Part shown: positions 36,251 through 62,664 of the stretch, in pieces
How positions within the stretch are numbered: position 1 is the stretch's first letter
Layout: every line of letters starts with the position of its first letter
Assembly: GCA_028820655.1 (NCBI GenBank)
Contig: JAPPIK010000014.1
Location: forward strand, 124,001-188,000
Direction of reading: 5' to 3'
DNA length: 64,000 nt
Origin: Candidatus Poribacteria bacterium
GTDB taxonomy: Bacteria; Poribacteria; WGA-4E; JAJDTR01
Made by a program: the position numbers and the translations under genes
The notes under the pieces: generated by a model
The model's database searches: none
Seen by the model: the letters and a program-made list of their open reading frames with translations, nothing else
What the model was told of the DNA's origin: nothing

Positions 36251-36411
36251 TCTAGGGTCGCTGAGCTATTCGTATTTCACTGTCCCATCTTACTAGCTTG
36301 TATCAAATTGGGCAGCGGACACCTTACAAATATACGGATTGAGTGTTGGACAATTAGAATTCTGCATCGATTCCGAATCTTGCAAAAGTGAGAGGAGTTC
36401 AAGACATTACG

Positions 36412-37236: not shown

Positions 37237-37516
37237 ACTCATCAACATGGCGGCTATCCATGATTCGCACCGGACTTTCACTGTTGGAGCGGTCAAGAAT
37301 ACGGTTTGGATAGCATGGAATTACGGGAGATCAAACGAAAGATCACTAACTGCGATTGATGGATCTCGGGGCGACATGAAGTCGAGACTTGGATATTGCT
37401 CCCACAGAATTGGGGCGCGTACTTATGCAATTGCGACACAGAGCAATCCGAAACGCTTCCATTGGATGAAAGGCTACTCTAGCTATACGCCACCAAACAC
37501 AATAGGAGTTCAATCC

Positions 37517-38347
37517 ATGTTAATGATGATAAAGAAATTCTCGTACCTTTGCTTTGCCTGTATCGTGATCGGTTCGACTTCGACCTGGAGGAGCCATGCT
37601 CAACCTATTCTTGAGGATGTCGTGGGTATGTGGCTCTTCGATGAAGGCAGGGGCAAAGACGTAAGGGACGCGTCCGGAAATAGGCTTCACGGCGAGTTTG
37701 GGCGCAAACCGGAGTTCGTTGAAGGAATATTCGGTACGGCTCTGCAATTCAGCGGCGGAGAGGAGGGGCCTTGGCTAGAAATGGATGGCCCTATCAAGAT
37801 TGAGAGCGTTGATTTTTCCTTCGGCTGCTGGATGATACCGGGGAGACCGCAAATCTGCTGGTCAACTGTCCTATCGGCAAAGGATCAACATAAGGCAGAT
37901 GTAGGGTTCGCCCTTGAACAGAGCAACTGTTTGAACAATTGGTACAGGCTTGTCATCGGCAATGTATTCAATTGGAACATCATAGGAAATCCAAGAAACA
38001 CAGTCCGTCCGAAACCGGAGGAATGGAACCATGTCGCGTTTGTCCGTCACGGCAGGGACGGGATTTGGTATCTTAACGGGGAGCCGGATCGCCCAAAGCG
38101 GGGCAACTATTATGTTGATCTAGGGTCGGTCGAACCCGTGAAGCCCTCGCGAGAAAATTTTCGAATAGGCAATACCGTATTTGACGAGCGGCGAGGCTGG
38201 AAGGGAACCCTTGACGAAGTCTTTATCTTCAGCAGGGCGTTGAGCCAACTTGAGGTTCAGACAGTCATGGAAAAGGGACTCATCGGAGCACAGGCGGTTG
38301 ATTCGAAGGACAAGATCGCAGCAATCTGGGGACGAATAAAGTCTTAA
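37517..38347 (+). CDS. Secreted LamG-domain protein, copy 3 of 3
   Basis: The ATG at 37517 is preceded 8 bp by AGGAG and gives 276 residues; the frame is open for 90 codons further upstream, but without family similarity. It has the signal peptide (FSYLCFACIVIGSTSTWRSHAQ), then VGMWLFDEGRGKDVRDASG, GIFGTALQFSGG, EWNHVAFVRHGRDGIWYLNG and LDEVFIFSRALSQLEV. The tandem array ends here. Confidence 0.9.
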   Translation: MLMMIKKFSYLCFACIVIGSTSTWRSHAQPILEDVVGMWLFDEGRGKDVRDASGNRLHGEFGRKPEFVEGIFGTALQFSGGEEGPWLEMDGPIKIESVDFSFGCWMIPGRPQICWSTVLSAKDQHKADVGFALEQSNCLNNWYRLVIGNVFNWNIIGNPRNTVRPKPEEWNHVAFVRHGRDGIWYLNGEPDRPKRGNYYVDLGSVEPVKPSRENFRIGNTVFDERRGWKGTLDEVFIFSRALSQLEVQTVMEKGLIGAQAVDSKDKIAAIWGRIKS

Positions 38348-41545: not shown

Positions 41546-43534
41546 TTAGTAAGGGGTGCCGACGGATACAGGCGCGCCAGTGATGCGCACGCTGCCGGAC
41601 TCGGGAACAACAAACACTCGGGCGCAGTCTATTCCGTGTCCCGGATGCTGCCTTGAGGCGTTTAGGGACGGTTGTCCCCGATCAGCGTTATCAATCTTCC
41701 AAGACGTATAAGGTTTCGAGTAAACCATATTCACATAATCGCCTCCCGCCTTGGATTGATAATACCACCCATTTCTCCCTTGGGTGCCGCTATACCCCTT
41801 TGAGGCTTGGTAGGTTGTCCCATTCTCGTAGGTTATCTTCGGATCCCAATAGGTGTTGTCGTGCGCTGTGCCATGCACCATGTTCACAATGAAAAAGATC
41901 CTGTCGCCCGATTTAACTTCAACTTTAACATCGTGGTATTGCCTGTCAGCGCTGTGTTGGCAATAAGCCCATCCCTCGTCGGGCCAAACCTGGTCATCAT
42001 TCTTCAAAATTTTGAGGTTAACCCCATCACCCGTTCTTGGCCTTGATTCATATAGCGCACGGCGATCACTAATCGGCGCGAAGATGTATTTCATCAGAAA
42101 TCGTGAATCTTCGGTAACCTGTTTTGACCGTATTTCTTGGTCGAATTTACGATTCAACTCGACCTGGCCCTTCATGTGCCCCTCTTCTCTCACTTTCCTA
42201 GAGTTGCTAAGGCTGAAGTGATTCGCCATTCCTAACAAGAACGCCGCACATACTATGCATGCCTCAAAACGCCTGGAACTGTTTCGGTGACTTAGGAGAG
42301 AGAACGCGCTCAGCAGTGCGACAATAAGGATAAGAGTCGCACTCAGGTAGTAGTAGCCGCCTCTCCAAATGTCAGCCCAAGCGAGCGGATTGTGCCGCAT
42401 ATAGAGTAGCATTATCATGAATACACAGGATAGAAACCCCGTCGTTACCATCAATACTAACGCAACGCGATCAGTCAAGCCTCGTCTCGAATTGCCATTG
42501 GAGGAGGTGCGAGGGGTTTTCTTGAAGGCAGATAAAGCAATGAGAATGTATGCGGCAAGTGCAAGCCCCCAAGACAGATAGTAGCCGTCCCAGATATTTC
42601 CAACGGCTAACTGAAGCTGAAGAACGGTCAACTTGAACCCGTTCCATATACCTCTAACGTAGCCGTCGAAATCGTGAAGCAGGAAGAAACGCAATGAAGT
42701 CCAACTTCGATCCGGAGGGTGCCCCCGAACCGCATTAATGATATATGGACACACCAGATAGTCCCAGACGAGATAAAAGCCAAACGCTATCGAAAACGCA
42801 GAGGCGAAAAATAGAAGATGCCGGAATTCTTGTCCACTGCGATGCCGTATTCCCGCTATCAGTAGGCTCAACGCAATCAGCCACAAACCGATCATGACCC
42901 CCTGCTTGTCCGTGACAAATGACAGAAAGGCGCCCAGCCCCAGTAGCACGTAAACAATCACATTGTGGGGCTTGGATGGCGGTTTCAACCAGTGAATAAG
43001 GCATAATATTCCTAAGGCAGCCCAGAATGCAGCCATGATCTTTCCGCATCGAAAATATATGCCGTGCATCACGAGCATCTGCGGTGTCAGCAGAAAAAGC
43101 ATCGCTAACACCATGCATGATACCCGCCGAAACGTGGGGAGCAGTTCTCTTACGATGAAATAGAGCACGATCACGGTCAGGATGGCAAAGGTGATCTGCG
43201 TAATGCTGCGAAACCCGTACGAAAAGAAGGGAATCTTGTTTAAGAGTAGCACCATTTGAGCATCGATATACTCAAAGACATAACTAAACTCCCGCGCTTG
43301 ATAGTTGTCCCAGTCGGTAGGTGTCGGGTCAAAGAACTTTGCGACTTCGCTCCAAAATCCGCCGGTTGGGTTACCGTAGTAGGCCATGAAGGTCTCGGTT
43401 TCGCCATGTATCACCGGCCGTGAGTTCTTCAGAGTGGTGCACCATATTCCCGCCATGATTACAAACATCAAGGCGAACACGACGCGAAGTCTATCACTGA
43501 ACAATTTGCTTAACGTTGGGATTATGGTATCCAT
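41546..43534 (-). CDS. GT-C-like membrane protein with C-terminal beta domain, copy 1 of 3
   Basis: The 662-residue protein has about 11-12 hydrophobic segments in residues 15-440. A large early loop (GETETFMAYYGNPTGGFWSEVAKFFDP and NYQAREFSYVFEYIDAQ) follows the first segment, as in GT-C-type membrane glycosyltransferases. After the last segment a soluble region of about 200 residues contains WPDEGWAYCQHS, DVKVEVKSGDRIFFIVNM, NTYWDPKITYENG and SGTQGRNGWYYQ, a pattern typical of carbohydrate-binding-like beta-sandwich modules. Two paralogues follow at 46115 and 48278. No catalytic motif can be proven, so glycosyl transfer is an inference from topology. Confidence 0.65.
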   Translation of the reverse strand: MDTIIPTLSKLFSDRLRVVFALMFVIMAGIWCTTLKNSRPVIHGETETFMAYYGNPTGGFWSEVAKFFDPTPTDWDNYQAREFSYVFEYIDAQMVLLLNKIPFFSYGFRSITQITFAILTVIVLYFIVRELLPTFRRVSCMVLAMLFLLTPQMLVMHGIYFRCGKIMAAFWAALGILCLIHWLKPPSKPHNVIVYVLLGLGAFLSFVTDKQGVMIGLWLIALSLLIAGIRHRSGQEFRHLLFFASAFSIAFGFYLVWDYLVCPYIINAVRGHPPDRSWTSLRFFLLHDFDGYVRGIWNGFKLTVLQLQLAVGNIWDGYYLSWGLALAAYILIALSAFKKTPRTSSNGNSRRGLTDRVALVLMVTTGFLSCVFMIMLLYMRHNPLAWADIWRGGYYYLSATLILIVALLSAFSLLSHRNSSRRFEACIVCAAFLLGMANHFSLSNSRKVREEGHMKGQVELNRKFDQEIRSKQVTEDSRFLMKYIFAPISDRRALYESRPRTGDGVNLKILKNDDQVWPDEGWAYCQHSADRQYHDVKVEVKSGDRIFFIVNMVHGTAHDNTYWDPKITYENGTTYQASKGYSGTQGRNGWYYQSKAGGDYVNMVYSKPYTSWKIDNADRGQPSLNASRQHPGHGIDCARVFVVPESGSVRITGAPVSVGTPY

Positions 43535-46114: not shown

Positions 46115-48112
46115 TTAATAAGGCGTGCCCACACATACCGGAGCGCCGGTCACACGTATGGTACCGGGCTTGGGAATAACGAACACACGCGCACAGTCAA
46201 ATCCTCTTGCCGGGCGTTGCTTGGAGGAATTCAACGAGGGCAGACCGCCCCGTCTCCACGTGTTACGGCGACTGTCATAAACCATATCCACGAAGTTCTC
46301 ACCCTCCCTGTATTGGTACTGCCACCCGTTCAATCCCTGTGTACCGCTAAATCCCTGTGAAGCTTGGTGGGTGGTTCCATCTTCATAGGTTATTGCCGGA
46401 TTCCAATAGGTGCTGTCAAATCCCATGCCTTGGTTAATGTTCACGAGGAAGTAAAGTTTGTCACCTGCACTCACATTCACCTTGAGATCGTGATGGCGCC
46501 TGTCGGCGCTGTGTTTAGAATGCGCCCAGCCCTTTGCGGGCCAAATCTGATCGTCGTTCATCAATATCTTGAGGTTGACGCCATCACCGACTCTTGGTCT
46601 TGCTCTGTACAAGGCGCCGCGCTCGTTAGCGGGGGCGAAGATGTACCGCATTAGGAAGCGTGAATCTTCGGTCACTTGCTTTGACCTTATCTCTTGGTCG
46701 TATAGGAGATTTGCCTCGAGTATTTCCCTCTTGGAATCGCGCTCCCATCCGAAGCCCATGGTCTTGGGGAGGTTCAGGTAATTCGCCATGCAGATCAAGA
46801 ACACGGCACATACGATGAAGGTCTCGACTCGCTTTGAACCGTTGCGGCGACTGAGCATCGAGAACACGATCAGAAGCGCGACAATCAGAATAAGCGTCGC
46901 GCTCTGATAGTAGTAGCCGCCTCTCCAAATGTCGGGCCAAGCGAGCGGAGTATGCCGCATGTATAGGAGCATAATCATGAACACGCAGGTGAGGATCGCC
47001 GTAAGCAGCATTGCCCCCAAAGCAGCGTGATCCCCCAAACCTCGCCTCGAATTCTCATCGTCACCTACAGGATCGCCGGGGGATTTCTTTACGGCAGATA
47101 AGGCTATGAGGAATAATGCAACAGACAGAAGCCCCCAAGACAAAAAATTGCCGTCCCAGAAATTCCCGAACGCCAACTGGATTTGGAGGGCAGTCAACTT
47201 TAATCCGTTCCAGATGCCCTTCATGTATGAGGATTGATCGTGGTTCAGGAAGAAACTCAGGGAGGACCAACTTCGATCCGGAGGGTATCCTCTAACGGTT
47301 TCAATGATGAATGGACACAGCCCGTAATCCCAGTAGACGTAGAAGCAGAAAGCTGCGGAGAACGAAGCCGCAAAAAATATGAGGTGCCGGCACGATTGAT
47401 TCCGATAACACCGAATCCATCCCATGATAAGGCTCAAGCCTATTAACCACAGACCGATCATCACCGCTTGTTTGTCCGTGATAAACGACAAAATGGCGCC
47501 GAAGCCAAGCAATGCATATGCAAACACACTGTGTCGTGTGATAACGGGTTTTAGCCAGCGAATCAGGCAGAGAATCCCGAGGGCCGCCCAGAATGCTGTA
47601 ACGGTCTTGCCGCAGCGAAAGTATTCGGCTTGCATCGCGAGCATCTGAGTCGAAAGCGGGAAAAGCATTGCCAAAACCAGACATGATGTCCGCCGAAACG
47701 CGGGAAGCAGTTCTCTGGCAATGAAATACAATACGACACAGCTTAGTATGGCAAAGGAGATTTGAGAGACGCTGCGAAAGCCGTACGAAAAGAACGGGAT
47801 TTTGTTTAGTAATATCACCATCCGAGCGTCAATGTACTCAAAGAGATATCCCAGCTCTCGCGCTTGATAGTTGTCCCAGTCCGTCGGCGCCGGGTCAAAA
47901 AACTTTGCAACTTCGCTCCAGAAACTGCCAGTCGGGTTGCCGTAGAACGCCAAGAAGGTCTCCGTTTCAAAATGTATAATGGGCCGGGTAGTTATCAGAC
48001 CGGTGCACCAGATCCCAACCAATATGAATAGCATCAGGACATATGCGAGTTGAGGTCTATCGCTTAACGTCCTTCTCAATGATATAATCGTGTCCATATG
48101 GTACCGGTTCAA
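46115..48112 (-). CDS. GT-C-like membrane protein with C-terminal beta domain, copy 2 of 3
   Basis: The 665-residue paralogue of 41546-43534 is similar over its whole length: HFETETFLAFYGNPTGSFWSEVAKFFDP, NYQARELGYLFEYIDARMVILLNKIPFFSYGFRS, DKQAVMIGLWLIGLSL, MIMLLYMRHTPLAWPDIWRGGYYYQSATLIL in the membrane part, and DLKVNVSAGDKLYFLVNI, STYWNPAITYEDG, SGTQGLNGWQYQYREG in the C-terminal domain. The second ATG (48097) aligns with the start of copy 1. The downstream neighbour 48278-50260 is the third copy. Confidence 0.65.
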   Translation of the reverse strand: MNRYHMDTIISLRRTLSDRPQLAYVLMLFILVGIWCTGLITTRPIIHFETETFLAFYGNPTGSFWSEVAKFFDPAPTDWDNYQARELGYLFEYIDARMVILLNKIPFFSYGFRSVSQISFAILSCVVLYFIARELLPAFRRTSCLVLAMLFPLSTQMLAMQAEYFRCGKTVTAFWAALGILCLIRWLKPVITRHSVFAYALLGFGAILSFITDKQAVMIGLWLIGLSLIMGWIRCYRNQSCRHLIFFAASFSAAFCFYVYWDYGLCPFIIETVRGYPPDRSWSSLSFFLNHDQSSYMKGIWNGLKLTALQIQLAFGNFWDGNFLSWGLLSVALFLIALSAVKKSPGDPVGDDENSRRGLGDHAALGAMLLTAILTCVFMIMLLYMRHTPLAWPDIWRGGYYYQSATLILIVALLIVFSMLSRRNGSKRVETFIVCAVFLICMANYLNLPKTMGFGWERDSKREILEANLLYDQEIRSKQVTEDSRFLMRYIFAPANERGALYRARPRVGDGVNLKILMNDDQIWPAKGWAHSKHSADRRHHDLKVNVSAGDKLYFLVNINQGMGFDSTYWNPAITYEDGTTHQASQGFSGTQGLNGWQYQYREGENFVDMVYDSRRNTWRRGGLPSLNSSKQRPARGFDCARVFVIPKPGTIRVTGAPVCVGTPY

Positions 48113-48277: not shown

Positions 48278-50260
48278 CTACGGGCTCCTCACGCAAACGG
48301 GAGCGCCGGTCACCCGTACCTTACCGATTTTTGGAGCGACAAACACTCGGGCGCTCTCCCCTCCGAAACCGGGCCGCTGTCTGTTAGCTTTCAGCAAAGG
48401 AAAACCGTGATGTCTCCAGGATTTTTGACGGCTGTCGTAGACCAGACCCGCGTAGTTCGCTCCATCCTTGTATTGATAGCGCCACCCGTTCTTTCCTTGC
48501 GTGCCGCTGAATCCCTTCGAGGCTTTGAAGGTCGATCCATCTTCGTAGGTTATCACCGGATCCCAGTAGGCGGTATCGAACCCCATACCTTCGTGCGCGC
48601 CTACAAGGAAATAGAGTGTGTCACCGGACTCAACCTCCACTTTGACATCGTACCGTAGTCTGTCGGCGTTGTTTTTGGAATGCGCCCAACCCTCTTTGGG
48701 CCAAATTTGACCGTCGTTCTTCATGATCTTCATATTGAGGCCGCCGCCATGGCTTCCCCTTGCCTTGTAAAGCTCGCGGCGTTCGCCTGCCGGCGCAAAG
48801 ATGAATCTCACGACGAAACTTGCGGATTCGTTCACCTGCTTCGAGCGTATCTCTTCATCGTATGTACGATTCTGTTCTATCTGCTCCATCATGTGTCCGT
48901 ACCCCCATCCGGCACCCCTTGTCTTGTCGAGGCCTAGATAATTCGCGATGCACATCAGGAAAACCCCACACACGATGTATGTTTCGAACCTACTCGACCT
49001 GTTCCGGCGGCTGAGAAACGAAAACACGATCAGAAGCGCAAGGATGAGAATAAGAGTGGCGCTTTGATAATAGTATCCGCCTTTCCAAAGGTCTTCCCAC
49101 GCGAGCGGATTGTGCCGCATGTAGAGAAGCATGATCATGAACACGCACGTCAGTAATGCCGTTACTAGCACAGTTGCCAGCGCCGTGCGATCCGACAAGC
49201 CCCGCCTCGAATCGTCAATTGTGTTGCCGGGTGCACCGGGGGTTTTCTGTATCGCCGCTAAAGCAACGAGTATATACGCCGCCAGCGCAAGCCCCCAAGA
49301 CAGTAGATTGCCGTCCCAGACGTTTCCGAACGCCAACTGGATTTGTAGAGCGGTTAATTTGACCCCATGCCAGAGACCTCCGATGTACGCGGCGGCGCCT
49401 TGAGAAAGGAAGAAACTCAAGGAGGACCAACTCCGATCGGGATGGTACCCGTTCACGGCTTGGATGATGTATGGACACAACCGGTAATCCCAGTAGAGAT
49501 AGAAGCAGAATGCCCCCGCAAACGAAGCCGCGAAAAATAGAAAGTGCCGGTAGGTTTGATTCCGATGACGCCGAATCACCGCCATAATGCCGCTCAAGCC
49601 GATCAACCACAGACCGGTCATTACCCCCTGTTTATCCGTGATATACGACAAAAAGGCGCCCAATCCCAGCAGTATGTAAGAAGCCGCGTGCCACGGCTTG
49701 GCCGGCTGCTTTAGCCAGTGAATCAGGCAGAGAATCCAGAGCGCAGTCCAGAACGCGGTTACCGTCTTTCCGCATCGGAAGTAGAGTCCGTGCATTACGA
49801 GCATTTGGGTTGAAACCGGAAAAAGCATGGCTAAGACCATACATGATGTTCGCCGAAATGCCGGCAACAGTTCCCTTGCGATGAAATACAGCACGAACGC
49901 CGTTAGGATGGTGAAAGTGATTTGCATGACGCTGCGAAAACCGTATGAAAAGAAAGGGACCTTGTTAAAGAGTAATAACGCTTGAGCATCGACATACTCG
50001 AAGCCATAGCCCAACTCCCGCGCCTGATAGGCGTCCCAGTCCGTAGAAACGGGGTCAAAGAATTTTGAAACCTCGCTCCAAAACCCTCCGGTGGGGTTTC
50101 CGTAGTTCGTCAAGAAGGACTCCGCCTCACGGTGTATTATTGGCCTCATGTTCTTTAAGCTAGCGCCCCATACGGCTACCATGATGATGAACATCACGGC
50201 AAACGCGAACCGGGGTTTGTCGTGGAACTCTGTTCTTAACGTTCGTATTAAAGTGTACAT
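48278..50260 (-). CDS. GT-C-like membrane protein with C-terminal beta domain, copy 3 of 3
   Basis: The 660-residue paralogue has the same layout: HREAESFLTNYGNPTGGFWSEVSKFFDP, AYQARELGYGFEYVDAQALLLFNKVPFFSYGFRS, DKQGVMTGLWLIGLSGIM, MIMLLYMRHNPLAWEDLWKGGYYYQSATLIL, then DVKVEVESGDTLYFLVGA, TAYWDPVITYEDGSTFKAS and SGTQGKNGWRYQYKDG. The membrane part is better conserved among the copies than the extreme C-terminus. No signal for a particular sugar or lipid donor can be read from the sequence. Confidence 0.65.
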   Translation of the reverse strand: MYTLIRTLRTEFHDKPRFAFAVMFIIMVAVWGASLKNMRPIIHREAESFLTNYGNPTGGFWSEVSKFFDPVSTDWDAYQARELGYGFEYVDAQALLLFNKVPFFSYGFRSVMQITFTILTAFVLYFIARELLPAFRRTSCMVLAMLFPVSTQMLVMHGLYFRCGKTVTAFWTALWILCLIHWLKQPAKPWHAASYILLGLGAFLSYITDKQGVMTGLWLIGLSGIMAVIRRHRNQTYRHFLFFAASFAGAFCFYLYWDYRLCPYIIQAVNGYHPDRSWSSLSFFLSQGAAAYIGGLWHGVKLTALQIQLAFGNVWDGNLLSWGLALAAYILVALAAIQKTPGAPGNTIDDSRRGLSDRTALATVLVTALLTCVFMIMLLYMRHNPLAWEDLWKGGYYYQSATLILILALLIVFSFLSRRNRSSRFETYIVCGVFLMCIANYLGLDKTRGAGWGYGHMMEQIEQNRTYDEEIRSKQVNESASFVVRFIFAPAGERRELYKARGSHGGGLNMKIMKNDGQIWPKEGWAHSKNNADRLRYDVKVEVESGDTLYFLVGAHEGMGFDTAYWDPVITYEDGSTFKASKGFSGTQGKNGWRYQYKDGANYAGLVYDSRQKSWRHHGFPLLKANRQRPGFGGESARVFVAPKIGKVRVTGAPVCVRSP

Positions 50261-51554: not shown

Positions 51555-52673
51555 ATGAGCGGATATGATATTTTACTGGTAGTTATCTTAATAATATTCT
51601 GCGGTTGGGCGAGTTACACCGATCTCAAAGAGAAGAAAATCAAAAATATCTGCTCAATGGGTTTGATTTATGCCGGAATCGTAACTCAAGTCATGTTATT
51701 TCTTCTCGGTGAAACCAAAATCGGAAACATGCTATCCGTTTTCATCATGGGAGGTATTATTGCCTTCGGCATGTTCTGGTTGGGAATCCTGGCGCCCGGA
51801 GACGCCAAACTGTATTGGGGAGTTGCCATGATTCTGCCCCCGTCTATATGGGGACGGAATCTTGCCGGACTTCCGTATCCGGCGTTGATAATCTTCATCA
51901 ATATCTTCATTGTATATTTCGTTTATAGCCTCGTGACGACATGCGTTAGGTATTTTTCGTCGCACAGATCGCTCGCATTAACCAAGGCGTTGCCGGCAGT
52001 GAAAGAGTCCTTCAAGCAACTTCCCGGAGGGATGTGGTCTTTGTTCCAATTTCTGATAATCATATTCGGGGTTATGTTGTTTGCCTACCAGTCGCAAACG
52101 CGGGCTAATATTTGGCACTTGGTTGTTGCGATTCTCCTGTACCAACTGCTGAAGTATGCACTGGAATCCCACGCAAACAGACACATCTCTATTTTGGTGT
52201 ATCTCGCACTGTTCATCGCGATTCTGATGGATCCGGTTCTGCTCGGCGCTTTTTGGAAAAGGGTTTTGGTTTTTGCTATTGCGTATCGACTCGTTTTGCC
52301 CGTCGTTCGTACGTATGTGCTTGATTTGGATATGTCCTGTCTCAGTCAGGTCGTACCTGTCAAAGATCTTCAACCGGGGATGAACCCCGCCGAGAAAATC
52401 GTCAAGGTTCAGACGGATGAGGGAGTGAGGTACGAGAAAGAGGAGGCTTTGGTTTCCAATCTGCACAATGCGAACTTGGTGGTTTCCCCGACGCCGGAAG
52501 GGTTGTCGGATGAAAAGGTACGGGAACTAAAAGCGTTGGCGGACGCGGGATTTTTCAAAGGATTCGATGACAGTTTGGCGATTCAACGCGCCATACATTT
52601 CGCGCCGATTATTTTGGCGGGCACCCTCCTCACGGTTCTTTGCGGGGGACCATTTTACGGCATAATTACCTAG
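51555..52673 (+). CDS. A24 (prepilin-peptidase-like) membrane protease
   Basis: The 372-residue protein has about eight hydrophobic segments. The two catalytic aspartates of A24 peptidases are visible: SYTDLKEKKIKN (D23) and LAPGDAKLYWG (D83, the GxGD-type motif with Pro in place of the first Gly). The N-terminal half matches the peptidase core without a methyltransferase domain, like preflagellin/small prepilin peptidases. The second half adds more membrane segments and a cytosolic stretch (VVPVKDLQPGMNPAEKIVKV ... LVVSPTPEGLSDEKVRELKALADAG). AGGA 9 bp before the ATG supports the start. No pilin or secretion genes are nearby; the genes that follow suggest it could process the leader peptide encoded at 57366. 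Confidence 0.85.
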   Translation: MSGYDILLVVILIIFCGWASYTDLKEKKIKNICSMGLIYAGIVTQVMLFLLGETKIGNMLSVFIMGGIIAFGMFWLGILAPGDAKLYWGVAMILPPSIWGRNLAGLPYPALIIFINIFIVYFVYSLVTTCVRYFSSHRSLALTKALPAVKESFKQLPGGMWSLFQFLIIIFGVMLFAYQSQTRANIWHLVVAILLYQLLKYALESHANRHISILVYLALFIAILMDPVLLGAFWKRVLVFAIAYRLVLPVVRTYVLDLDMSCLSQVVPVKDLQPGMNPAEKIVKVQTDEGVRYEKEEALVSNLHNANLVVSPTPEGLSDEKVRELKALADAGFFKGFDDSLAIQRAIHFAPIILAGTLLTVLCGGPFYGIIT

Positions 52674-53207
52674 TGGTTGATTTTCTAAGTACGTATGTGA
52701 AGTGTTAGTGGTTAACATGGTCCGAACTGTGATTTATGTGATTTGGATGATTACGATGATTTAGTGTGTGGTAGTTTGATTGGCAATTGTCTGAATGGGA
52801 TCTCTATCAGGATTTTCTATCGCATTCGCTATTCACTCATTTGATCACTCACTATCCATTCGCTTGATCGGATTAAACGGATTAAAGGATTTAGGGATCC
52901 CGATGGGAGCCCTATCAGGATTAACTATGGGATCTCTATCGCGCTCATTATCCATTCGCTTGATCCTTCACTATTCGTTCAGTTGATCACTCGTTATTCA
53001 CTCGCTTGATCGGATTGAGTCATTGCACCGCGTTAGTAGAGAGGTCGGGACCGGGAGATCCGTCCTACAGAAAAGACACAGAAACCAAGTTTTTCCAACG
53101 TGGAAACGCGAAATTGGCAGATTTCAGCCCAATTTACCTATTATTTAGCAAACGTGAACCAAAAACTCGGTTTCTCTGTTTCTAGCCAACGTAAGTATTG
53201 AGGGTGA
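52674..53207. repeat. Tandem GATC-type repeats and A/T-rich inverted sequence
   Basis: From 52798 to 53015 the GATC-bounded repeat occurs as several tandem imperfect units (CTATTCACTCATTTGATC, CTATCCATTCGCTTGATCGG, GGATCTCTATCGCGCTCATT, GTTATTCACTCGCTTGATCGG). At 53088-53177 AAACCAAGTTTTT and AAAAACTCGGTTT face each other about 70 bp apart, related to the 13-bp hairpin family. I find no gene here. Confidence 0.65.
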
Positions 53208-54863
53208 GTGAGACTCATGAGGCAATACAAAGTGATCGAGACGGCGGAGGGCGTTTACTTGGCGCATATACCTCGCCATCAACTCATACAGATCGACGCT
53301 TTGGCAAAAGATGTCTTGGAATTGTATGACTCCCGCAGCGCAGAGCAGATTGAGGAGATTCTGGCGGGTAAATACCCAGTCCCCGAGATTCAAGGCTGCC
53401 TCGAAGAACTTCAATCCTTCTTTGACGGCGAGGCGTCGCAAACAGAGAGTTCCCTCGTGCAACAAGGGCGCCGACCAAAAATCGTCGCTCCCAGGTTGAG
53501 ACCGCAGAAGACCGAAATGCGGTGGGACACACTGGGAGCGTCGGTGGCTCACACACATCTACTTGGTGCGTTGTCCAAAGTTGCCGAAGTGCACTCGAAC
53601 CAAAAGTTTGAAGGAGCAGATATCCATTTTGTCGATTTTCAGCCGGATGACAAGCCGTCCATATCCCGATTTATCGCCGAGAACTATGACGGCGTTCTAC
53701 TTTGGTATGTCGATGAGTTCGAGTTTTTGCCCTTACTCCGGTATCTGGATGCGCCCGTGGTCTTGCCGGTTTATGCCGAAAGAGGAGGCAATGGCAGAAT
53801 CATAAACGGCATGCTGCGCTGGTATTCGGCAATGCGCTCCTTTGACAGTTTTATGGTGCTTACGCAATCCCCCGCGGATTTTTACGCAAAATTTTTTCAT
53901 GACACGTCGATATTTAGCACAGTTCCCTGCGGCGTTGACAGCACGTTCTTTTCCCCGATGGATAGGGAGGAGGCGAAAGCGAAGGTTACCGAGTGGATAG
54001 GGCGCCCCGAAATTGCCGAACAGCCGATTGTCGGTTATCTCTCCCGCTTTGACACGATGAAGGGGGCAGCGATTTTTGTCGATTTGGCTCGGTTGTTGCC
54101 GGATGTCCTGTTCTTGGCGGTGGGCCCGATAGAAGCCGATGAGTACCGTTTTCCGCCCAATTTCATCCATGCGGGACGGCAGCCGAGGGAAAATTTGCCC
54201 GTTTTCTATAACGCCTTCGACCTCTTCTGTTTTCCAAGCATCGCCGGTTCGGAAACCTTCGGTTTGGTGGTGTTGGAGTCCATGGCGTGCGGAACCGTGC
54301 CAATCGTTTCATCCTTTGACGGACCCAAGTATGTGGTCGGCGATGCCGGGGTGGTGGTCAAAGCGGCGACGTTTGAAAAGGATATGGTCACTATCTCCGG
54401 CTACGCCTCGCCTCATGCGTTTGCCGCCGCCGTGAAAGATTTACTCGCGGATGACGCCAAAAGGAGAACGCTTGGGGAGAAAGCCCGAGAGCGGAGCCTC
54501 ACGTACTCTTGGGAGGCGAGCGCGGCATGTCTTTTGGAGGTGTTTGAAGGTCTTAATCAAAAGCGCGAGTTGCGGCATGGCGGGAACCGGTTCCCGGTCG
54601 TATTCGGGCGGAATCTTCAAAGGGACGGCGCCACTGCTCCGAAAGCCACGGTGGTTGGCATCACTCGAGATGGAAAATCGCCCATGGGCGGACGCGCGCT
54701 TGACCTGTCGGTTGAAGAGGGGATTGCGCTTGCGTTGTCCCGTCGACACACGCCTCATGAGATTGAGGTCGTCTTGTCGCACCTGTACCGCGACAGCGAA
54801 AAAGTCAGCCAAAGTCTCCAACGCATTCACGCTTATGTGGCATCCCAATTGGAAACTGTTTAG
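53208..54863 (+). CDS. PqqD/RRE-like domain fused to a GT4 glycosyltransferase
   Basis: This is a 551-residue fusion. Residues about 4-75 (YKVIETAEGVYLAHIP, IQIDALAKDVLELYD, SAEQIEEILAGKYPVPEIQGCLEELQSFF) have the beta-strand/three-helix pattern of PqqD-like RiPP-precursor recognition elements (RRE). Residues about 110-455 form a GT-B glycosyltransferase of family GT4 type: TVPCGVDSTFFSP, VGYLSRFDTMKGAAIFVDLARLLP, FLAVGP, LPVFYNAFDLFCFPS and the donor-site SETFGLVVLESMACG (E-x7-E). The start is GTG 53208 or ATG 53217. A leader-binding domain joined to a glycosyltransferase suggests that it glycosylates a ribosomal peptide; the peptide at 57366 is the natural candidate. The RRE assignment rests on pattern only. 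Confidence 0.8.
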   Translation: MRLMRQYKVIETAEGVYLAHIPRHQLIQIDALAKDVLELYDSRSAEQIEEILAGKYPVPEIQGCLEELQSFFDGEASQTESSLVQQGRRPKIVAPRLRPQKTEMRWDTLGASVAHTHLLGALSKVAEVHSNQKFEGADIHFVDFQPDDKPSISRFIAENYDGVLLWYVDEFEFLPLLRYLDAPVVLPVYAERGGNGRIINGMLRWYSAMRSFDSFMVLTQSPADFYAKFFHDTSIFSTVPCGVDSTFFSPMDREEAKAKVTEWIGRPEIAEQPIVGYLSRFDTMKGAAIFVDLARLLPDVLFLAVGPIEADEYRFPPNFIHAGRQPRENLPVFYNAFDLFCFPSIAGSETFGLVVLESMACGTVPIVSSFDGPKYVVGDAGVVVKAATFEKDMVTISGYASPHAFAAAVKDLLADDAKRRTLGEKARERSLTYSWEASAACLLEVFEGLNQKRELRHGGNRFPVVFGRNLQRDGATAPKATVVGITRDGKSPMGGRALDLSVEEGIALALSRRHTPHEIEVVLSHLYRDSEKVSQSLQRIHAYVASQLETV

Positions 54864-55638
54864 TCCATAAATCTAGCAGGGGATGTTGGTTCGCCGTACT
54901 GCAATTCAATGCTTGTTCCTACACCATATGCGAATTGTAGGAGCGATCAAGCGAACGAATAGTGAGTGCGATAGAGATCCCTCTCCAGGTCGCGAATGCT
55001 TGTTGCCGCGCAAGGTTTGGATCGATCTAAACTAGGACTTACGCCGCGAGCGTCAAATACGCCTAATTCGGGAGTAGGGAATAACGATCGTTATTCCATA
55101 GAAATCAAGTTACCTGAGTTCGTATGGGATTGGTAGGGTTTCTGTCCTAAAACGCTTAACTTTGTGGTTTTTCCGCCAAGAAATCATGGCTTCAACGTAC
55201 ATCTAAGCCCCAGAGGGGCGACACTTGGATAGCGTCCTTGAATACGTCGGAAAGTGACAGCAATCGGTTATTCCAAAGTGGGTGATGTAACCGACACAAC
55301 CAACCTGTCGGGATCTCTATCGCACTCGCTATCCACTCGTTTGATCCCCTCGGGGGCTTGGGAGAGTAAATTTCGCTGTTTCTATACACCTTTCGCCCCT
55401 TTGGGGGCTAAGAGGTTGGCGCGTAATGCACGCCCTACAGATGTGCTCTTCAAACAAGCTTTGAGACATTGAAGCCACATGACTAACACGCTAAAACGCT
55501 TAAACTCAATCTCGATGGGTAATAACGATCATTATTCCCTACAGAAGCTTTGGCGCAGCATCAGTTCATCGCCGCAATCATTAGATTGCGCATTTTGCGT
55601 AAGTCCTGTAAACAATAATCCCAATTGGAAACGCAATC
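54864..55638. repeat. Repeat-rich spacer between the two RRE-GT genes
   Basis: It holds an inverted GATC-type copy (54945-54981), a direct copy with perfect GGGATC/GATCCC ends (55310-55348) and REP-like GCCCC/GGGGC hairpins with GTATAG-type tails (55204-55234 and 55346-55410). A right-end sequence CGCCCTACAGATGTGCTCTTCAAAC-like (55428-55452) is related to the MITE-like family. AATAACGATCGTTATTCC (55081-55098) is a near-perfect palindrome, repeated as AATAACGATCATTATTCC at 55521-55538. I see no coding frame. Confidence 0.65.
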
Positions 55639-55938
55639 ATGATTGAATTTCCTACGAAATTAAACGCCTTGCACCCGTTTTCTCATAACCTGGCGGAGGA
55701 AGTTGACCCGCTTGGAGAAGCACAATACATCGCCGATCTTACGGCGGGTTGTGTTTTGGAGATTACCCCCTTGATTGCGGGGATCCTGAGCTTGTGCGAA
55801 TCCAAATCGAACCCCGAGATTCGGGAGACACTGCGTTCCCGATTTTCGGATGCAGAGATTTCCGAAGCGTACCGTTATCTATGGCAGCTTGGGAGTGCGG
55901 GGATTCTGTTTTCGGGCAAGACCCATCGCTCGGATTAG
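55639..55938 (+). CDS. PqqD/RRE-like domain, first part of a split RRE-GT gene
   Basis: The 99-residue product resembles a stand-alone PqqD-like domain: FSHNLAEEVDPLGEAQYIADLTAGCVLEITPLIAGILSLCE, then NPEIRETLRSRFSDAEISEAYRYLWQLGSAGILFSG. It ends at a TAG (55936-55938). The following glycosyltransferase is in the same frame, with no other stop in the 27 bp between. The whole stretch therefore equals the fused gene at 53208 interrupted by one nonsense codon. It may be translated as a separate RRE partner, read through, or be a mutation. The TAG is an ordinary stop elsewhere in this window. Confidence 0.75.
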   Translation: MIEFPTKLNALHPFSHNLAEEVDPLGEAQYIADLTAGCVLEITPLIAGILSLCESKSNPEIRETLRSRFSDAEISEAYRYLWQLGSAGILFSGKTHRSD

Positions 55939-55965
55939 GATAAGTCCTTCACAAACACCGTTCTT

Positions 55966-57273
55966 GTGGCTCCCGGCTTTCTCTACACCCTTGGGCGGCA
56001 GTCGTTCGTGACGCGGTTGGTGTGTTATCAGATGTTACGCACGCTGTGCCGCGAAATGGAACTGCACGCTCCGCTCTTTGTCGAGGAATCGGACGTTGCC
56101 CTGCCGGAAGATTTTGACTGGGAGGGGGTTCAGCCGTTCACTATGCCGGCGAATTCCACCGCCTCCTATATGAATCTATGTCCAGCCGCTTACGGGGGCA
56201 CCCTCAGTCTCCCCGGTTCCGGTTTCGGAGATCTCGTCATTTCGCAATTCGCGTCACCTCCGGCAGTTTTCTATGTTTCCAGTGGCAGTTTCGATTTGCA
56301 ATCCACCTTAGACAAGTATTTTGCGCTGCGCGATTGCGACCGTTTGTGCGTTGACGCCTGGTGGATTAAAGAACGGCTTTCGACTCTGGTCCCGAATCCG
56401 GATAAAATCGCCGTGGTTCCAACGGGAGTTGATTCGGAATTCTTTCAACCGATGGATACCGGCGGCTGCAAAACCGAACTCGCTTCCGCATTCCGGAATG
56501 AATCCATAAAAGACCTGCCGTTGGTGTTGCTTTTTCTCCCAACTCTGAGCCGCGAAAGCCGTGCGTTTGTGGAAAAACTCGCGGGGCTCAACCCGCAGAT
56601 GTTCTTCATGGTGGTTCTTTGCCAAGCCTCAGAAGGGAGGGAATGGGGTTTGGAGAATATCGAAGTTTTCCCTATCGCGGACCTTGCCGATTATAACAGC
56701 CTTCCTATTCTATTCAACGCCGCAGCGCTGGGTTTCTTCCCCGCGAAATCGGGAAATCAGCTTCACCCTTTGCAGAACGCGCTGTGCTGCGGCGTCCCGG
56801 TGATTGTTTCCGGACCGGAAAGCTTGAAAACAACCATGCCTGCTTTGGGGACATATCTTTCAGTCGAGGGGAATCAAACAGTTGATGAAACGGTTGGGGC
56901 GCTGTCGGAACTCATGAGGAAACTATTGAAAGACACGGATGAGTTGCGCGGACTAAGGAAAAGGTCGCGAGAGATAGGCGTTACCTTTGGCTGGGCTGAA
57001 ATGGCGAAGTCGGTTCGAGAACTATTCACCGACTTGACGGTGGAGCGCTCCGACAGTCCAGCCAACCCGATGTCCCCGGTCGGATTCTATCAATACCATT
57101 ATGACATCGTGACGGGAGCGGTTACTCCCTCCGCTTACGAACGCACATCCGGCACGCCGCGAGAAATTGATGAACTTATCACCACCGATCTGTTGGCTGG
57201 GGCTACGTCGGAGGGGGTACAGCAGGTGGTGGAATTTCTCGCAACGGATTCATCAACAACGAAAAAACGTTAA
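55966..57273 (+). CDS. GT-B glycosyltransferase-like protein, second part of a split RRE-GT gene
   Basis: The 435-residue frame begins at a GTG with no clear ribosome site, 27 bp after the TAG that ends the RRE part. It keeps GT4-like features (VVPTGVDSEFFQPMD, ADYNSLPILFNAAALGFFP, CCGVPVIVSGPESLKT). The donor-site E-x7-E is lost: the aligned segment reads SGNQLHPLQNALCCG, with neither glutamate. The C-terminal tail (DVERSDSPANPMS ... TTDLLAGATSEGVQQVVEFL) aligns with the end of copy 1. It may be a pseudoenzyme working with the active copy at 53208, or a decaying gene. Confidence 0.7.
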   Translation: MAPGFLYTLGRQSFVTRLVCYQMLRTLCREMELHAPLFVEESDVALPEDFDWEGVQPFTMPANSTASYMNLCPAAYGGTLSLPGSGFGDLVISQFASPPAVFYVSSGSFDLQSTLDKYFALRDCDRLCVDAWWIKERLSTLVPNPDKIAVVPTGVDSEFFQPMDTGGCKTELASAFRNESIKDLPLVLLFLPTLSRESRAFVEKLAGLNPQMFFMVVLCQASEGREWGLENIEVFPIADLADYNSLPILFNAAALGFFPAKSGNQLHPLQNALCCGVPVIVSGPESLKTTMPALGTYLSVEGNQTVDETVGALSELMRKLLKDTDELRGLRKRSREIGVTFGWAEMAKSVRELFTDLTVERSDSPANPMSPVGFYQYHYDIVTGAVTPSAYERTSGTPREIDELITTDLLAGATSEGVQQVVEFLATDSSTTKKR

Positions 57274-57365
57274 AACGACTTCATTCCGGCTAAAACGCCG
57301 TCTGAAGAACTCCCCGGTGTGTAGTTGATCAAGGGGAGTTATCCTAGAAAGGAGGTAAATCTCTA

Positions 57366-57659
57366 ATGAGAAGTCATTTGAGGTCAGTGGCAAAGCGGAA
57401 AGTGTCCGATTTCCTTCTCCGTGAAGACGGAATGGTGGGCAATAGGACGGCATTCTCGGCGGCGGCATTTGTAAGTACGACCGCCCTGGCAGCGACGCTG
57501 CTTGTTTCCACAGACGCCGGCGCAGACAACCCCGCAGGAGATCATTGTCCTGTGCATCCGGAGCACTGTGCTCCCGGTGAGTTCTGTTGCCGGGTTTATG
57601 ACGGTTTAGTTTGGGATTATGACTGCCTAAAACATGGCGCCCAATGTGGTGATTGTTAA
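57366..57659 (+). CDS. Cysteine-rich peptide with leader, candidate RiPP precursor
   Basis: The 97-residue peptide is preceded by one of the strongest ribosome sites in the window (AAAGGAGG, 9 bp before the ATG). Residues 1-25 are charged (KRKVSDFLLREDGMVG), residues about 29-48 are hydrophobic (TAFSAAAFVSTTALAATLLV), then STDAGA and a cysteine-rich C-terminus. The seven cysteines are C61, C68, C74, C75, C87, C94 and C97: spacing C-x6-C-x5-CC-x11-C-x6-C-x2-C, like disulfide-rich knottin-type peptides. DAGA|DN would suit signal peptidase, and G22 or G25 before the hydrophobic stretch would suit an A24 peptidase. It follows the two RRE-GT genes in the same direction, so I infer that it is their substrate. 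Confidence 0.75.
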   Translation: MRSHLRSVAKRKVSDFLLREDGMVGNRTAFSAAAFVSTTALAATLLVSTDAGADNPAGDHCPVHPEHCAPGEFCCRVYDGLVWDYDCLKHGAQCGDC

Positions 57660-59492: not shown

Positions 59493-60494
59493 GTGAATAA
59501 AATCAGCCCATTCATGAGAAGATGCCTATTTCTACTGCTATTCGCGTTAGTGGTTACGTCGGACAGCACAGCGCAGGAATTTGGACCGAGAATCGTCTTT
59601 GCATCGAACCGCGATGGCAACTGGGACATTTACTCCATGGACGTAAACGGAGACAATCTCCTCCAACTCACCGACCACCCGGCATCCGATAAATATCCCG
59701 CTTGCTCGCCGGATGGGAGAAGGATTGCGTTTACCTCAGATCGCGGCGTCACCGATGACCTGTATGTGATGGATAGCGATGGTAAAAACGTCGTGAGGCT
59801 CACCCATGACGATTTTTTTGAAACCGGCGCTAGTTGGTCGCCGGATGGAACGAAGATTGCCTTTGCATCTTTCCGAATTGTTGTTGGCAACACGGAAATC
59901 TACGTGATGGACCGCGATGGAAATAACGCGATGAATTTGACGAAACACAAGTGGCACGATGTTAGCCCGAGTTGGTCGCCAGATGGGAGCAAGATGGCGT
60001 TTGTCTCCTTCCGTGACGGCGGATTCAATACTCCCCATCATATATTCGTGATGAATGCAGATGGAACAGGAAGGCGGAATCTCACTGCCGACACCATCCT
60101 AAGGTTCAATTCCGCTCCCACTTGGTCGCCAGACGGACACAGAATTGCTTTCAATTCGCTGCGCCACTTCTTCCCTGCTCCCTCGCGCAATGACGTTTTC
60201 GTGATAACCGCCGACGGGAAGGAGTTAGAACAGCTTACGGATGGCCCGAGTAGCAGCAGGTCACCCGTCTATTCGCCGGATGGGACAAAGATCGCCTATG
60301 TGTCACGCCGTGGCGGAGACTCTAACGTTATTTTAATGGACGCCAACGGGAATAACAGAGTCAAACTCACGAAAACTGCTCCCGGTATTGATAACGAGGA
60401 TCCTTCCTGGCTACACGGTGGTTTGGCAGTTAACCCTAATGCAAAGTTGCCGGTATCTTGGGGACTTCTCAAACGGCGCGACAACTCGTGGTGA
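59493..60494 (+). CDS. Secreted TolB-like (PD40) beta-propeller protein, copy A
   Basis: The 333-residue protein starts at a GTG with AAGGAG about 10 bp upstream. The signal peptide (LFLLLFALVVTSDSTAQ) is followed by six WD40-like/PD40 repeats with the typical 'WSPDG..IAF.S.R' element (CSPDGRRIAFTSDRG, WSPDGTKIAFASFR, WSPDGSKMAFVSFRDG, WSPDGHRIAFNSLR, YSPDGTKIAYVSRRGG). It closely resembles 61696-62664. Periplasmic binding or scaffolding is likely. There is no TolB N-terminal domain or Pal/TolA neighbour, so it is not tolB proper. Confidence 0.9.
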   Translation: MNKISPFMRRCLFLLLFALVVTSDSTAQEFGPRIVFASNRDGNWDIYSMDVNGDNLLQLTDHPASDKYPACSPDGRRIAFTSDRGVTDDLYVMDSDGKNVVRLTHDDFFETGASWSPDGTKIAFASFRIVVGNTEIYVMDRDGNNAMNLTKHKWHDVSPSWSPDGSKMAFVSFRDGGFNTPHHIFVMNADGTGRRNLTADTILRFNSAPTWSPDGHRIAFNSLRHFFPAPSRNDVFVITADGKELEQLTDGPSSSRSPVYSPDGTKIAYVSRRGGDSNVILMDANGNNRVKLTKTAPGIDNEDPSWLHGGLAVNPNAKLPVSWGLLKRRDNSW

Positions 60495-60608
60495 TGTGAG
60501 TGAACTCGGCACCGACACCTAAACAGCAACTGAAGAACTGAAATCTGCGGCAATTCGTTTCATGTTTACATATATTACCCAAGTTGCCACCTATTCATCA
60601 GGTATCGG

Positions 60609-61448
60609 CTATATGAGTAGATTCTGAGTTGGTTCATATTGGTTGATGCTGGTAGCCACAACAAATAAGACGACTTTCAGTTCAAATCCTTGAGGTGTCA
60701 CGGCATGAATGGATCGCGGTAACAATCTTTCAATCAAACTCGCGGTCGCCTCAACAGACTTGCGGTAATAATTGACCAGATAGGCTTCCCATGGCGGATA
60801 TTGCCGCTTTGAATTCTTCTTACGTATCGACTTCAACTCCACTCCAGCTTCGGCAAGACAGTCTTCAATCTCATAGTTATTGTATGCTTTGTCTCCATAG
60901 GCACGGCTGCCCGCCGGTAAGTCGAAGTCAAAGTATTGTAAGCCTTCAACATCACCGGTGCTGCCCGGAGTCAAAAAGAACTCAACCGGTTGTCGTTGAG
61001 TGGTAACCAGCAGATGAATCTTTAAACCGTAGAAATACCGGCGTTTGGACGACTGATAGCCTCGAAATGTTTCATCGGTGTAGATTCTTGAGCGACGAAT
61101 GCGGATATTGTCACAAACAACAATGGGTATAGTATCTACGGCGTAGCGTTTCTGCTTATTGAGTTGTACGAAGCTCTCGCCCAAGATGTCGAATAGATCG
61201 ATGAGCATGGGTTTAATTCGGTGAAGCCGTCGATTAAACCGGCTTTTTGAGAGCATGTTTGGAATATAACCGTGAGTTTGAAGAAAATCACGAGCGGTTT
61301 CGAAATTGGCACCGAAAAAGAGTGTTGCCACCAGTGCTGTCGTCAAGATTTCGGCATCGGACATCTGAGCTTGTGGGTCTGGCTGATGGTTGAATGCCTT
61401 TAAGAGATCGTCACACAAGCAGAAGACAGTTACAGTTTGAATATCCAT
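60609..61448 (-). CDS. IS982-family transposase
   Basis: From the ATG at 61448 (AAGGAG 5 bp upstream) the protein has 279 residues, the usual IS982 length. It has AQMSDAEILTTALVATLFF, KSRFNRRLHRIKPMLIDLF and the DDE catalytic segments: AVDTIPIVVCDNIRI (first Asp), RGYQSSKRRYFYGLKIHLLVTTQRQPVEFFLTPGS, AYGDKAYNNYEIEDCL (second Asp), and the final acidic region near KSVEATASLIERLLP. It appears intact. It separates the two intact TolB-like paralogues. I could not fix the terminal inverted repeats or target duplication by eye. Confidence 0.93.
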   Translation of the reverse strand: MDIQTVTVFCLCDDLLKAFNHQPDPQAQMSDAEILTTALVATLFFGANFETARDFLQTHGYIPNMLSKSRFNRRLHRIKPMLIDLFDILGESFVQLNKQKRYAVDTIPIVVCDNIRIRRSRIYTDETFRGYQSSKRRYFYGLKIHLLVTTQRQPVEFFLTPGSTGDVEGLQYFDFDLPAGSRAYGDKAYNNYEIEDCLAEAGVELKSIRKKNSKRQYPPWEAYLVNYYRKSVEATASLIERLLPRSIHAVTPQGFELKVVLFVVATSINQYEPTQNLLI

Positions 61449-61695
61449 GGGTTCTCCTTTCGGGTGTTGAGGAAATAGTGAAATCCTCAAATCTAACGAA
61501 AACCCTTGGTGTTTCAATTCAATTATAGGAATGAATATTGACCCCGATAGCGATCCCTTTCCAACCGCACCAAATGGGTGGGATGAATACCGGTTCGGGC
61601 AGGAAACTTAACTTTCCGAAGAGTAGAGATGACTGCAAGTTTTAATATAGAAAATACACTAGAATTGCGCAACCCGATAAAGGAGAAATTGACCC

Positions 61696-62664
61696 ATGAA
61701 TGACACCCTGCGCTCTTTAAGAAGATTCTTGCTTCTATTGTTACTGGTGTTTATGGTTACCTCAGTTAGTATAGCACAGGGATTCGAACCGAGAATCGTC
61801 TTTGCTTCGAACCGCGATGGCGATTGGGACATTTATTCCATGGACGTAAACGGAGACAACCTCCTCCAACTCACAAACCACCCGGCAGCCGATAAATATC
61901 CCGCTAGCTCGCCGGACGGGAGAAGGATTGCGTTTTCCTCAGATCGCGGCGTAACAGATGACCTGTATGTGATGGACAGTGATGGTAGTAACGTGGTAAG
62001 GATCACCCATGACGATTTTTTTGAAACCGACTCGAGTTGGTCGCCGGACGGAACTAAGATTGCCTTTGCATCTTTCCGCCACGTCGTTGGCAACACGGAA
62101 ATCTACGTAATGGATTCCGATGGGAATAACCCGATAAATGTGACCAGACACAAGTGGCACGATGTTAGGCCGAGTTGGTCGCCAGACGGAAGCAAGATGG
62201 CGTTTGTCTCCTTCCGTGACGGCGGCTTCAATACTCCACATCATATATTTGTGATGAATGCAGATGGAACGGAAAGGCGCAATCTCACTGCCGACACCAA
62301 CCTAAGGTTCAATTCCGATCCTACTTGGTCGCCTGACGGACATAGGATTGCTTTCAATTCGCTGCGTCACTTAGTTCCCGCTCATTCGCGCAACGACATT
62401 TTCGTAATAACCGCTGACGGGAAAGAGATGGTGCAACTTACGGACGGACCGAGCACCAACTGGTCGCCCGCGTATGTGCAAGATGGGACAAAAATCGCCT
62501 TCGTGTCACACCGTGACGGAGATAATACTATTTATGTGATGGACACTAACGGGAAGAACATTGTCAAACTCACGAAGACCCCTACCGGAACTGAAAGCAT
62601 ATCTCCTTCTTGGCAGCCTGGGAGAAAAGAATCAAAAACCATTGACAAACAATCCAAGGAGTGA
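61696..62664 (+). CDS. Secreted TolB-like (PD40) beta-propeller protein, copy B
   Basis: The 322-residue paralogue of 59493-60494 has AAAGGAG 9 bp before the ATG. It has a signal peptide (FLLLLLLVFMVTSVSIAQ) and the repeats SSPDGRRIAFSSDRG, WSPDGTKIAFASFRHV, WSPDGSKMAFVSFRDG, WSPDGHRIAFNSLRH and VQDGTKIAFVSHRDG. Nearly all substitutions relative to copy A are conservative, so both are likely functional. The C-terminal tail is different (TEST-like PTGTESISPSWQPGRKESKT). Ligand unknown. Confidence 0.9.
   Translation: MNDTLRSLRRFLLLLLLVFMVTSVSIAQGFEPRIVFASNRDGDWDIYSMDVNGDNLLQLTNHPAADKYPASSPDGRRIAFSSDRGVTDDLYVMDSDGSNVVRITHDDFFETDSSWSPDGTKIAFASFRHVVGNTEIYVMDSDGNNPINVTRHKWHDVRPSWSPDGSKMAFVSFRDGGFNTPHHIFVMNADGTERRNLTADTNLRFNSDPTWSPDGHRIAFNSLRHLVPAHSRNDIFVITADGKEMVQLTDGPSTNWSPAYVQDGTKIAFVSHRDGDNTIYVMDTNGKNIVKLTKTPTGTESISPSWQPGRKESKTIDKQSKE

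Follow-up and report, generated by a model that had tools for sequence, protein, structure and literature searches.

A candidate system for leader-guided modification of cysteine-rich secreted peptides in Candidatus Poribacteria

Genes and precursor peptides at the locus

We analysed a 64,000-nt stretch of DNA from a Candidatus Poribacteria bacterium (assembly GCA_028820655.1, contig JAPPIK010000014.1, positions 124,001 to 188,000), hereafter called the window. Within 51555–57659 lie four genes that had been singled out in a preliminary description made from the sequence: an A24 prepilin-like peptidase, a family 4 glycosyltransferase (GT4) fused to a RiPP recognition element (RRE; RiPP, ribosomally synthesized and post-translationally modified peptide), a second, split copy of that fusion, and a cysteine-rich peptide with a leader. 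A check of the open reading frames (ORFs) upheld the positions of all four genes and their common direction; all features given below for the locus are on the + strand. We refer to the two glycosyltransferase (GT) proteins as GT-A and GT-B.

GT-A (53208–54863; 551 amino acids) contains a GT4 domain (PF00534, E = 6.8e-23) between two smaller domains. The EX7E motif is intact in 33 of 33 GT-A proteins (E349 and E357 in the window, accompanied by R280 and K285), and the AlphaFold2 model (predicted local distance difference test (pLDDT) 83.4, predicted TM-score 0.72) adopts the retaining type of the glycosyltransferase fold that is also named GT-B, with MshA nearest. On motif and fold together, GT-A is predicted to be an active GT4 enzyme. 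We found that its N-terminal domain (residues 4–80; 53217–53447) is an RRE by both sequence and topology. When a profile of 24 such domains was searched against 177,635 distinct PDB sequences, it matched residues 4–89 of CteB (5wgg/5why; E = 7.6e-15, next best 0.056), the stretch that forms the RRE of CteB. The PqqD family (PF05402) matched 9 of the 24 domains (2.9e-4 for the window domain, at 21.5 bits, the cut-off being 23.4), and residues 7–76 of the model form three strands followed by three helices, the RRE topology. The proposed similarity of this domain to PqqD and RRE proteins, and with it the RRE–GT4 fusion in the 53208 product, was therefore confirmed.

The C-terminal 90 residues of GT-A (462–551; 54591–54860), which the preliminary description had passed over, were also modelled as three strands followed by three helices (pLDDT 85.6). 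The top PDB folds were the RREs of TbiB1 and CteB, both as weak matches (E 0.39–0.65, TM ~0.5). We looked for sequence support for an RRE here and found none, and a profile comparison of the N- and C-terminal domains gave no homology (3.5%). We therefore describe the C-terminal domain as RRE-like only tentatively, on the strength of the model.

GT-B (55639–57273) consists of an RRE (55639–55938) and a degenerate GT4 domain. Its two parts, 55639–55938 and 55966–57273, are one frame broken by a single TAG at 55936–55938, which falls in the linker between the RRE and the GT domain; a possible restart is the GTG at 55966. Its relatives are mostly unbroken, at ~547 amino acids. TAG as a recoded codon was ruled out, because GT-A itself ends in TAG and this codon is thus read as a stop in this genome. 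The EX7E motif is lost, via a two-residue gap, in 23 of 23 full-length GT-B proteins and in 8 of 8 members of the GT-B2 group (31 of 31). The supposed second split copy does have an RRE and a GT4-like domain, but it is one interrupted frame and, judged by sequence, a second family distinct from GT-A and not a simple duplicate. GT-B is probably a pseudo-enzyme partner of GT-A, a feature not remarked on before; by analogy with the GtfA/GtfB pair, it may act in substrate binding or folding. The window copy may be defective, or its RRE and GT domain may still function as two separate pieces.

The peptidase (51555–52673) is a membrane aspartyl protease of the prepilin/GxGD type with an archaeal-type C-terminal domain. 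It scores 25.0 bits against PF01478 and 23.1 bits against PF06819 (archaeal A24 C-terminal domain), both just under the curated cut-offs; it scored 28.4 bits, above the cut-off, in the genome search, and a relative passes both cut-offs. The two catalytic aspartates, Asp23 (in YTD) and Asp83 (in PGDAK), are invariant in 12 aligned homologues, and the first glycine of the GxGD-like motif is replaced by alanine or serine. These findings bear out the A24 assignment. The cluster-type family has a single copy in this genome. Because a second, canonical A24 and one type II secretion/type IV pilus ATPase lie elsewhere in the genome, the cluster A24 is, as far as gene content tells, an extra and dedicated enzyme. 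Cluster-type A24 genes were also seen with no detected RRE–GT4 gene in genomes G031, G033, G042, G044, G045, G051 and G084.

The precursor gene (57366–57659) follows a Shine–Dalgarno sequence, AGGAGGT (57350–57356), and encodes the 97-residue peptide with a leader and seven cysteines that had been described. An iterated profile placed it in a family of 79 precursors; the search covered 43 stretches, namely 40 fetched neighbourhoods together with L008, L009 and the window. Its own genome encodes three paralogues, of which one lies 15 kb downstream on the contig of the window and the other two lie on contig C35. Members share a conserved leader of ~45 residues, a hydrophobic stretch, an AxA site and a hypervariable core in which cysteines are the main constants. 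In the window peptide, leader residues 1–22 (57366–57431) end in F16-x3-E20-D21-G22, with A24 cleavage predicted after G22. A hydrophobic segment ending in the signal-peptidase-I-like site A51-G-A53 follows (57432–57524), and the core is formed by residues 54–97 (57525–57656). Conservation is high at F16 (73/78), E20 (76/78), G22 (78/78) and V24 (74/78), and alanine occupies position −1 of the AxA site in 63 of 72 precursors. The motif F-x3-E-[E/D]-G with its invariant glycine resembles a prepilin peptidase site, and the leaders of Flp/Tad prepilins end in F-x3-E-x-G ahead of a hydrophobic helix. Together with the dedicated, conserved operonic A24, this motif lends good sequence support to the earlier suggestion that a pilin-type protease would remove the leader. 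The NCBIfam model HxsA3 (NF038309) matched the leader in 11 of 30 precursors (best E 2.1e-5), and a phylum-wide search with it gave three matches at E ≤ 1e-3, all to precursors of this family. A Pfam scan of the precursors returned only stray cysteine-rich matches, and a PDB profile search only unrelated ones. In one sub-family the leader and hydrophobic stretch are retained and the peptide ends in a short, cysteine-free hydrophobic tail (L085:5434-6075, L089:15387-15913 and L082:7913-8194); this sub-family has its own GT-A/GT-B/A24 set.

Cysteines in the window core are arranged as C-x6-C-x5-CC-x11-C-x6-C-x2-C, a knottin-like spacing whose first part (C-x6-C-x5-CC-x11-C-x6-C) resembles an inhibitor cystine knot. 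Of 70 distinct precursors, 59 have an even number of cysteines (59:11, p = 4e-9). In 5 of the 11 odd-numbered precursors a cysteine directly follows the AxA-like site, in a lipobox-like arrangement; possible lipidated variants of this kind (ASAC, AAAC, ALAC, DGC) are at L079:5312, L084:3295, L098:11546, L102:10800 and L095:16224. Tyrosine or tryptophan is present in 68 of 68 cores examined, with an aromatic residue two positions before a cysteine in 54; this aromatic residue may be structural.

Conservation of the gene set across the phylum

Among 85 genomes of the phylum, the GT occurs in 33, the cluster-type A24 in 38 and the peptide in 29. In Fisher tests, which take genomes as independent of shared ancestry, GT and peptide co-occurred (27 genomes with both, 6 with the GT alone, 2 with the peptide alone and 50 with neither; p = 3e-14), as did GT and A24 (31, 2, 7 and 45, respectively; p = 3e-14) and peptide and A24 (25 with both; p = 3e-8). 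An A24 gene lies within 15 kb of 71 of 97 GT-A genes, in all 71 cases on the same strand, and this holds for 11 of 11 in three genomes assembled into 1–3 contigs. GT-B follows GT-A at a gap of −4 to +23 nt in 24 of 33 cases, the gap from GT-B to A24 is −8 to +18 nt in 12 of 16, and wherever a precursor lies no more than 10 kb from a GT-A gene (57 precursors), the two share a strand. The grouping first noticed in a single stretch is thus conserved in related genomes, on one strand, with tight spacing and at p ≤ 3e-8 for each pair.

Conservation extends beyond the four genes first described. A common order is [cytochrome–DsbA] – GT-A – GT-B – A24 – [ABM-like], accompanied by at least one precursor gene. 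The cytochrome protein, which combines a tetrahaem cytochrome (Cytochrome_C554) with a GILT/DSBA domain, is present in most loci, as are secreted beta-propellers, and 52 of 79 precursors have a gene for a beta-propeller (49/79) or LamG protein (3/79) directly 3' of them; neither the cytochrome–DsbA nor the beta-propeller partner had been mentioned before. Some loci also contain a GHMP kinase, phosphomutase, nucleotidyltransferase or methyltransferase. No ATPase or platform gene family recurs across the loci, and no radical SAM family does. One gene group initially taken for a GT (GT4.1) was rejected; it is really the cytochrome–DsbA protein, linked to the GTs through one spurious 127-amino-acid ORF. 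In a scan of genome contigs, long matches came only from Ca. Poribacteria among the matches listed, the others covering the GT4 domain only, which suggests, within those matches, a restriction to this phylum. Domains, motifs, conservation and operon structure are direct results of these computations.

In the window the gene order differs from this common one, with A24 standing first, and the gene set of this genome is split: ABM and cytochrome–DsbA genes lie ~8–9 kb downstream of the window peptide (cytochrome–DsbA at L008:3239-5245, with the ABM-like gene before it and a second peptide after it). A secreted PD40 beta-propeller is encoded downstream of the peptide at 59493–60494. A C-terminal tail resembling 'sVsP.gKL.TtWG.LK' is common to secreted proteins of the beta-propeller, LamG and Kelch types (44 of 56 PD40, 16 of 22 Kelch and 8 of other families), which looks like a lineage-wide sorting or attachment tag; tail-bearing proteins are found in the window (35402–38347 and 59493–62664), in L008 and L009, and in L068–L106. 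A DDE transposase (PF13612; 60609–61517, − strand) sits between two PD40 genes. Enlarged intergenic gaps are occupied by a dispersed, partly inverted repeat, GGGATCTCTATCGCACTCGCTATCCACTCG..TTGATC, with ~23-nt periodicity and a chance expectation of 0 (52795–53020, 54941–54981, 55310–55347, 14664 and 28361). Three paralogous multi-spanning membrane proteins of ~660 amino acids are encoded at 41546–43534, 46115–48112 and 48278–50260 (− strand); the two that were scanned had no significant Pfam match. PADLOC models of anti-phage defence gave no matches, and a defence system is not supported.

Proposed pathway and rival explanations

We propose that the locus directs a leader-guided, RiPP-like modification of a disulfide-rich secreted peptide in Ca. 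Poribacteria, in which a dedicated A24 would remove the leader and GT-A would attach a sugar; we lean towards this reading, by a little more than even confidence. As in RRE-dependent RiPP systems, a PqqD-like RRE is part of a biosynthetic enzyme, and a precursor with conserved leader and variable core is encoded near it. We infer leader binding, glycosylation, the cleavage sites, the order of steps and the biological role as follows. The precursor would be made with its conserved ~45-residue leader and hypervariable cysteine-rich core. Its leader would be bound by the RRE of catalytically intact GT-A, working with the pseudo-GT GT-B, and GT-A would attach a sugar in the cytoplasm. At the membrane the A24 would cut after Gly22, and the hydrophobic stretch and AxA site would deliver the core and release it outside. 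There disulfides would form, aided by the cytochrome c554–DsbA/GILT fusion protein, and the mature mini-protein would act extracellularly, probably with the secreted beta-propeller encoded alongside.

Several observations weigh against this pathway. The co-occurrence p values are uncorrected for shared ancestry, two genomes have the peptide with no detected GT, and orphan peptides are found on contig C35. Leader divergence tracks GT divergence (Mantel test, r 0.70–0.77), a real correlation, but the RRE tracks the leader no better than the catalytic domain does (partial r −0.07), so that specific RRE–leader coevolution is unsupported. Position +5 of the presumed cleavage site is lysine, arginine or glutamine and not the glutamate of pilins, and the AxA site could be sufficient for release. 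Neither serine nor threonine occurs in the core of the window peptide or in that of its C15 paralogue, and the even cysteine count leaves no free cysteine in most precursors; with its seven cysteines, the window peptide itself could have one unpaired. The weakest step of the proposal is peptide glycosylation, because no acceptor residue stands out. The label 'glycocin' was rejected for the same reasons: the window core lacks serine and threonine, most cores have no spare cysteine, no acceptor is clear, and the GT belongs to GT4/PF00534 with no SunS-like GT2. Of the glycosylated cysteine-rich peptide system first suggested, the leader-guided, cysteine-rich part stands and peptide glycosylation is not established.

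Other explanations were weighed as well. The peptides may be secreted disulfide-rich mini-proteins that are never glycosylated, the RREs serving to recruit or regulate GT-A and GT-B through the peptide, or the GTs modifying the beta-propeller or a surface glycan. The lack of serine and threonine in the window core and of spare cysteines in most cores fits this, as do the beta-propeller and LamG genes directly 3' of the peptide; a broader glycan pathway would account well for the GHMP kinase, phosphomutase and nucleotidyltransferase genes that several loci contain. However, known RREs recruit precursor peptides to the enzyme they are fused to (PMC7470986), the N-terminal RRE is kept in all GT-A and GT-B proteins examined, and precursors near GT-A are always on its strand; we consider this explanation improbable. 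The leader layout and the dedicated A24 would also suit diverged Flp/Tad-type (class IVb) pilins or pseudopilins, A24-processed and then membrane-anchored or assembled, with the GTs as pilin glycosyltransferases. Yet Flp (PF04964) has no match above the cut-off in the genome and none among the peptides, the +5 glutamate is replaced, an AxA site is conserved after the hydrophobic stretch, and the loci have no recurring assembly ATPase or platform gene. This explanation also leaves the RRE fusion unaccounted for, and we regard it as quite improbable.

A further explanation concerns the window copy alone, which may be decaying because GT-B carries the TAG and the operon is spread out. The cluster would then be an inherited relic, no longer fully functional here owing to the nonsense codon, which is still compatible with function in relatives. 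Gaps enlarged and filled by dispersed repeats, and a gene set scattered with the ABM and cytochrome–DsbA genes ~8–9 kb and the second peptide 15 kb downstream, fit such decay. By contrast, intact genes that keep the conserved motifs remain for GT-A, A24 and two peptides, and a TAG in the linker could leave a split RRE and GT at work; we think a relic unlikely.

The leader-guided pathway may go further and represent a new class of ribosomal peptide, marked by a prepilin-type leader, recognition by RRE–GT4–RRE and a pseudo-GT, glycosylation on a non-canonical residue (the aromatic two before a cysteine being the best-conserved candidate), A24 maturation, cytochrome–DsbA oxidation and pairing with a secreted beta-propeller whose gene adjoins each precursor gene. 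We advance this tentatively, with more doubt than belief. If true, it would extend leader-guided peptide chemistry to GT4 enzymes and prepilin peptidases, link RiPP leaders to pilin-type processing, and reveal an extensive family of disulfide mini-proteins, diversified by nature, from an uncultured phylum (79 precursors in the sampled loci; 29 of 85 genomes). Each of its main elements (leader, RRE, A24 site and the division into active and pseudo-GT) is open to direct laboratory tests.

Relation to known systems

Glycocins such as sublancin, made by SunS, use a GT2 enzyme with no RRE fusion, a double-glycine leader and an ABC protease. As in the Poribacteria system, a GT is clustered there with a small peptide that carries disulfides, but the Poribacteria loci have GT4, A24 and mostly no free cysteine. 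In GtfA and GtfB, two GT4-like proteins stand in tandem, of which only one is active; the pair glycosylates serine-rich-repeat adhesins and lacks an RRE. This pairing is like that of GT-A and GT-B, but the substrate there is serine-rich and the Poribacteria core may have no serine or threonine at all. Flp/Tad type IVb prepilins share the F-x3-E-x-G leader end, hydrophobic helix and A24, and differ from the precursors in the +5 residue, the AxA site, the cysteine-rich core and the assembly machinery absent from these loci.

By sequence, the RRE nearest to that of GT-A is the one in CteB, from the SCIFF/ranthipeptide radical SAM maturases (5wgg, 5why); there the RRE is fused to a radical SAM enzyme that forms thioethers, an enzyme family that does not recur in the Poribacteria loci. 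The match to HxsA3 of the His-Xaa-Ser systems covers profile positions 4–45, the leader region. However, the Poribacteria precursors are far under the 65-bit cut-off (≤23.9 where scores are listed), and their cores are cysteine-rich with no His-Xaa-Ser repeats.

A literature search, with most subscription papers outside its reach, found no paper joining 'prepilin peptidase', 'RiPP' and 'leader peptide', and none joining 'RiPP', 'glycosyltransferase' and 'Flp pilin'; within this reach, no description of a RiPP that uses a prepilin peptidase came to light. DAG-RiPP/lipoprotein hybrids (PMC12636315) and bufferins likewise send a modified peptide out through the general signal-peptide route; here a prepilin-type motif and A24 replace lipoprotein or plain Sec processing, although a few Poribacteria members do have cysteine at +1. 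The RRE–glycosyltransferase fusion, contrasted with known glycocin transferases in the preliminary description, has precedents: such fusions were flagged by RRE-Finder (PMC7470986), and fusions of the PF00535 (GT2) type were listed in 2025 (PMC12710340), all of them uncharacterised. Like the Poribacteria system, they join an RRE and a glycosyltransferase on one chain in RiPP-like gene surroundings. The Poribacteria system is set apart by a GT4 domain (PF00534) flanked on both sides by RRE-like domains, and by its pseudo-GT partner and A24 peptidase.

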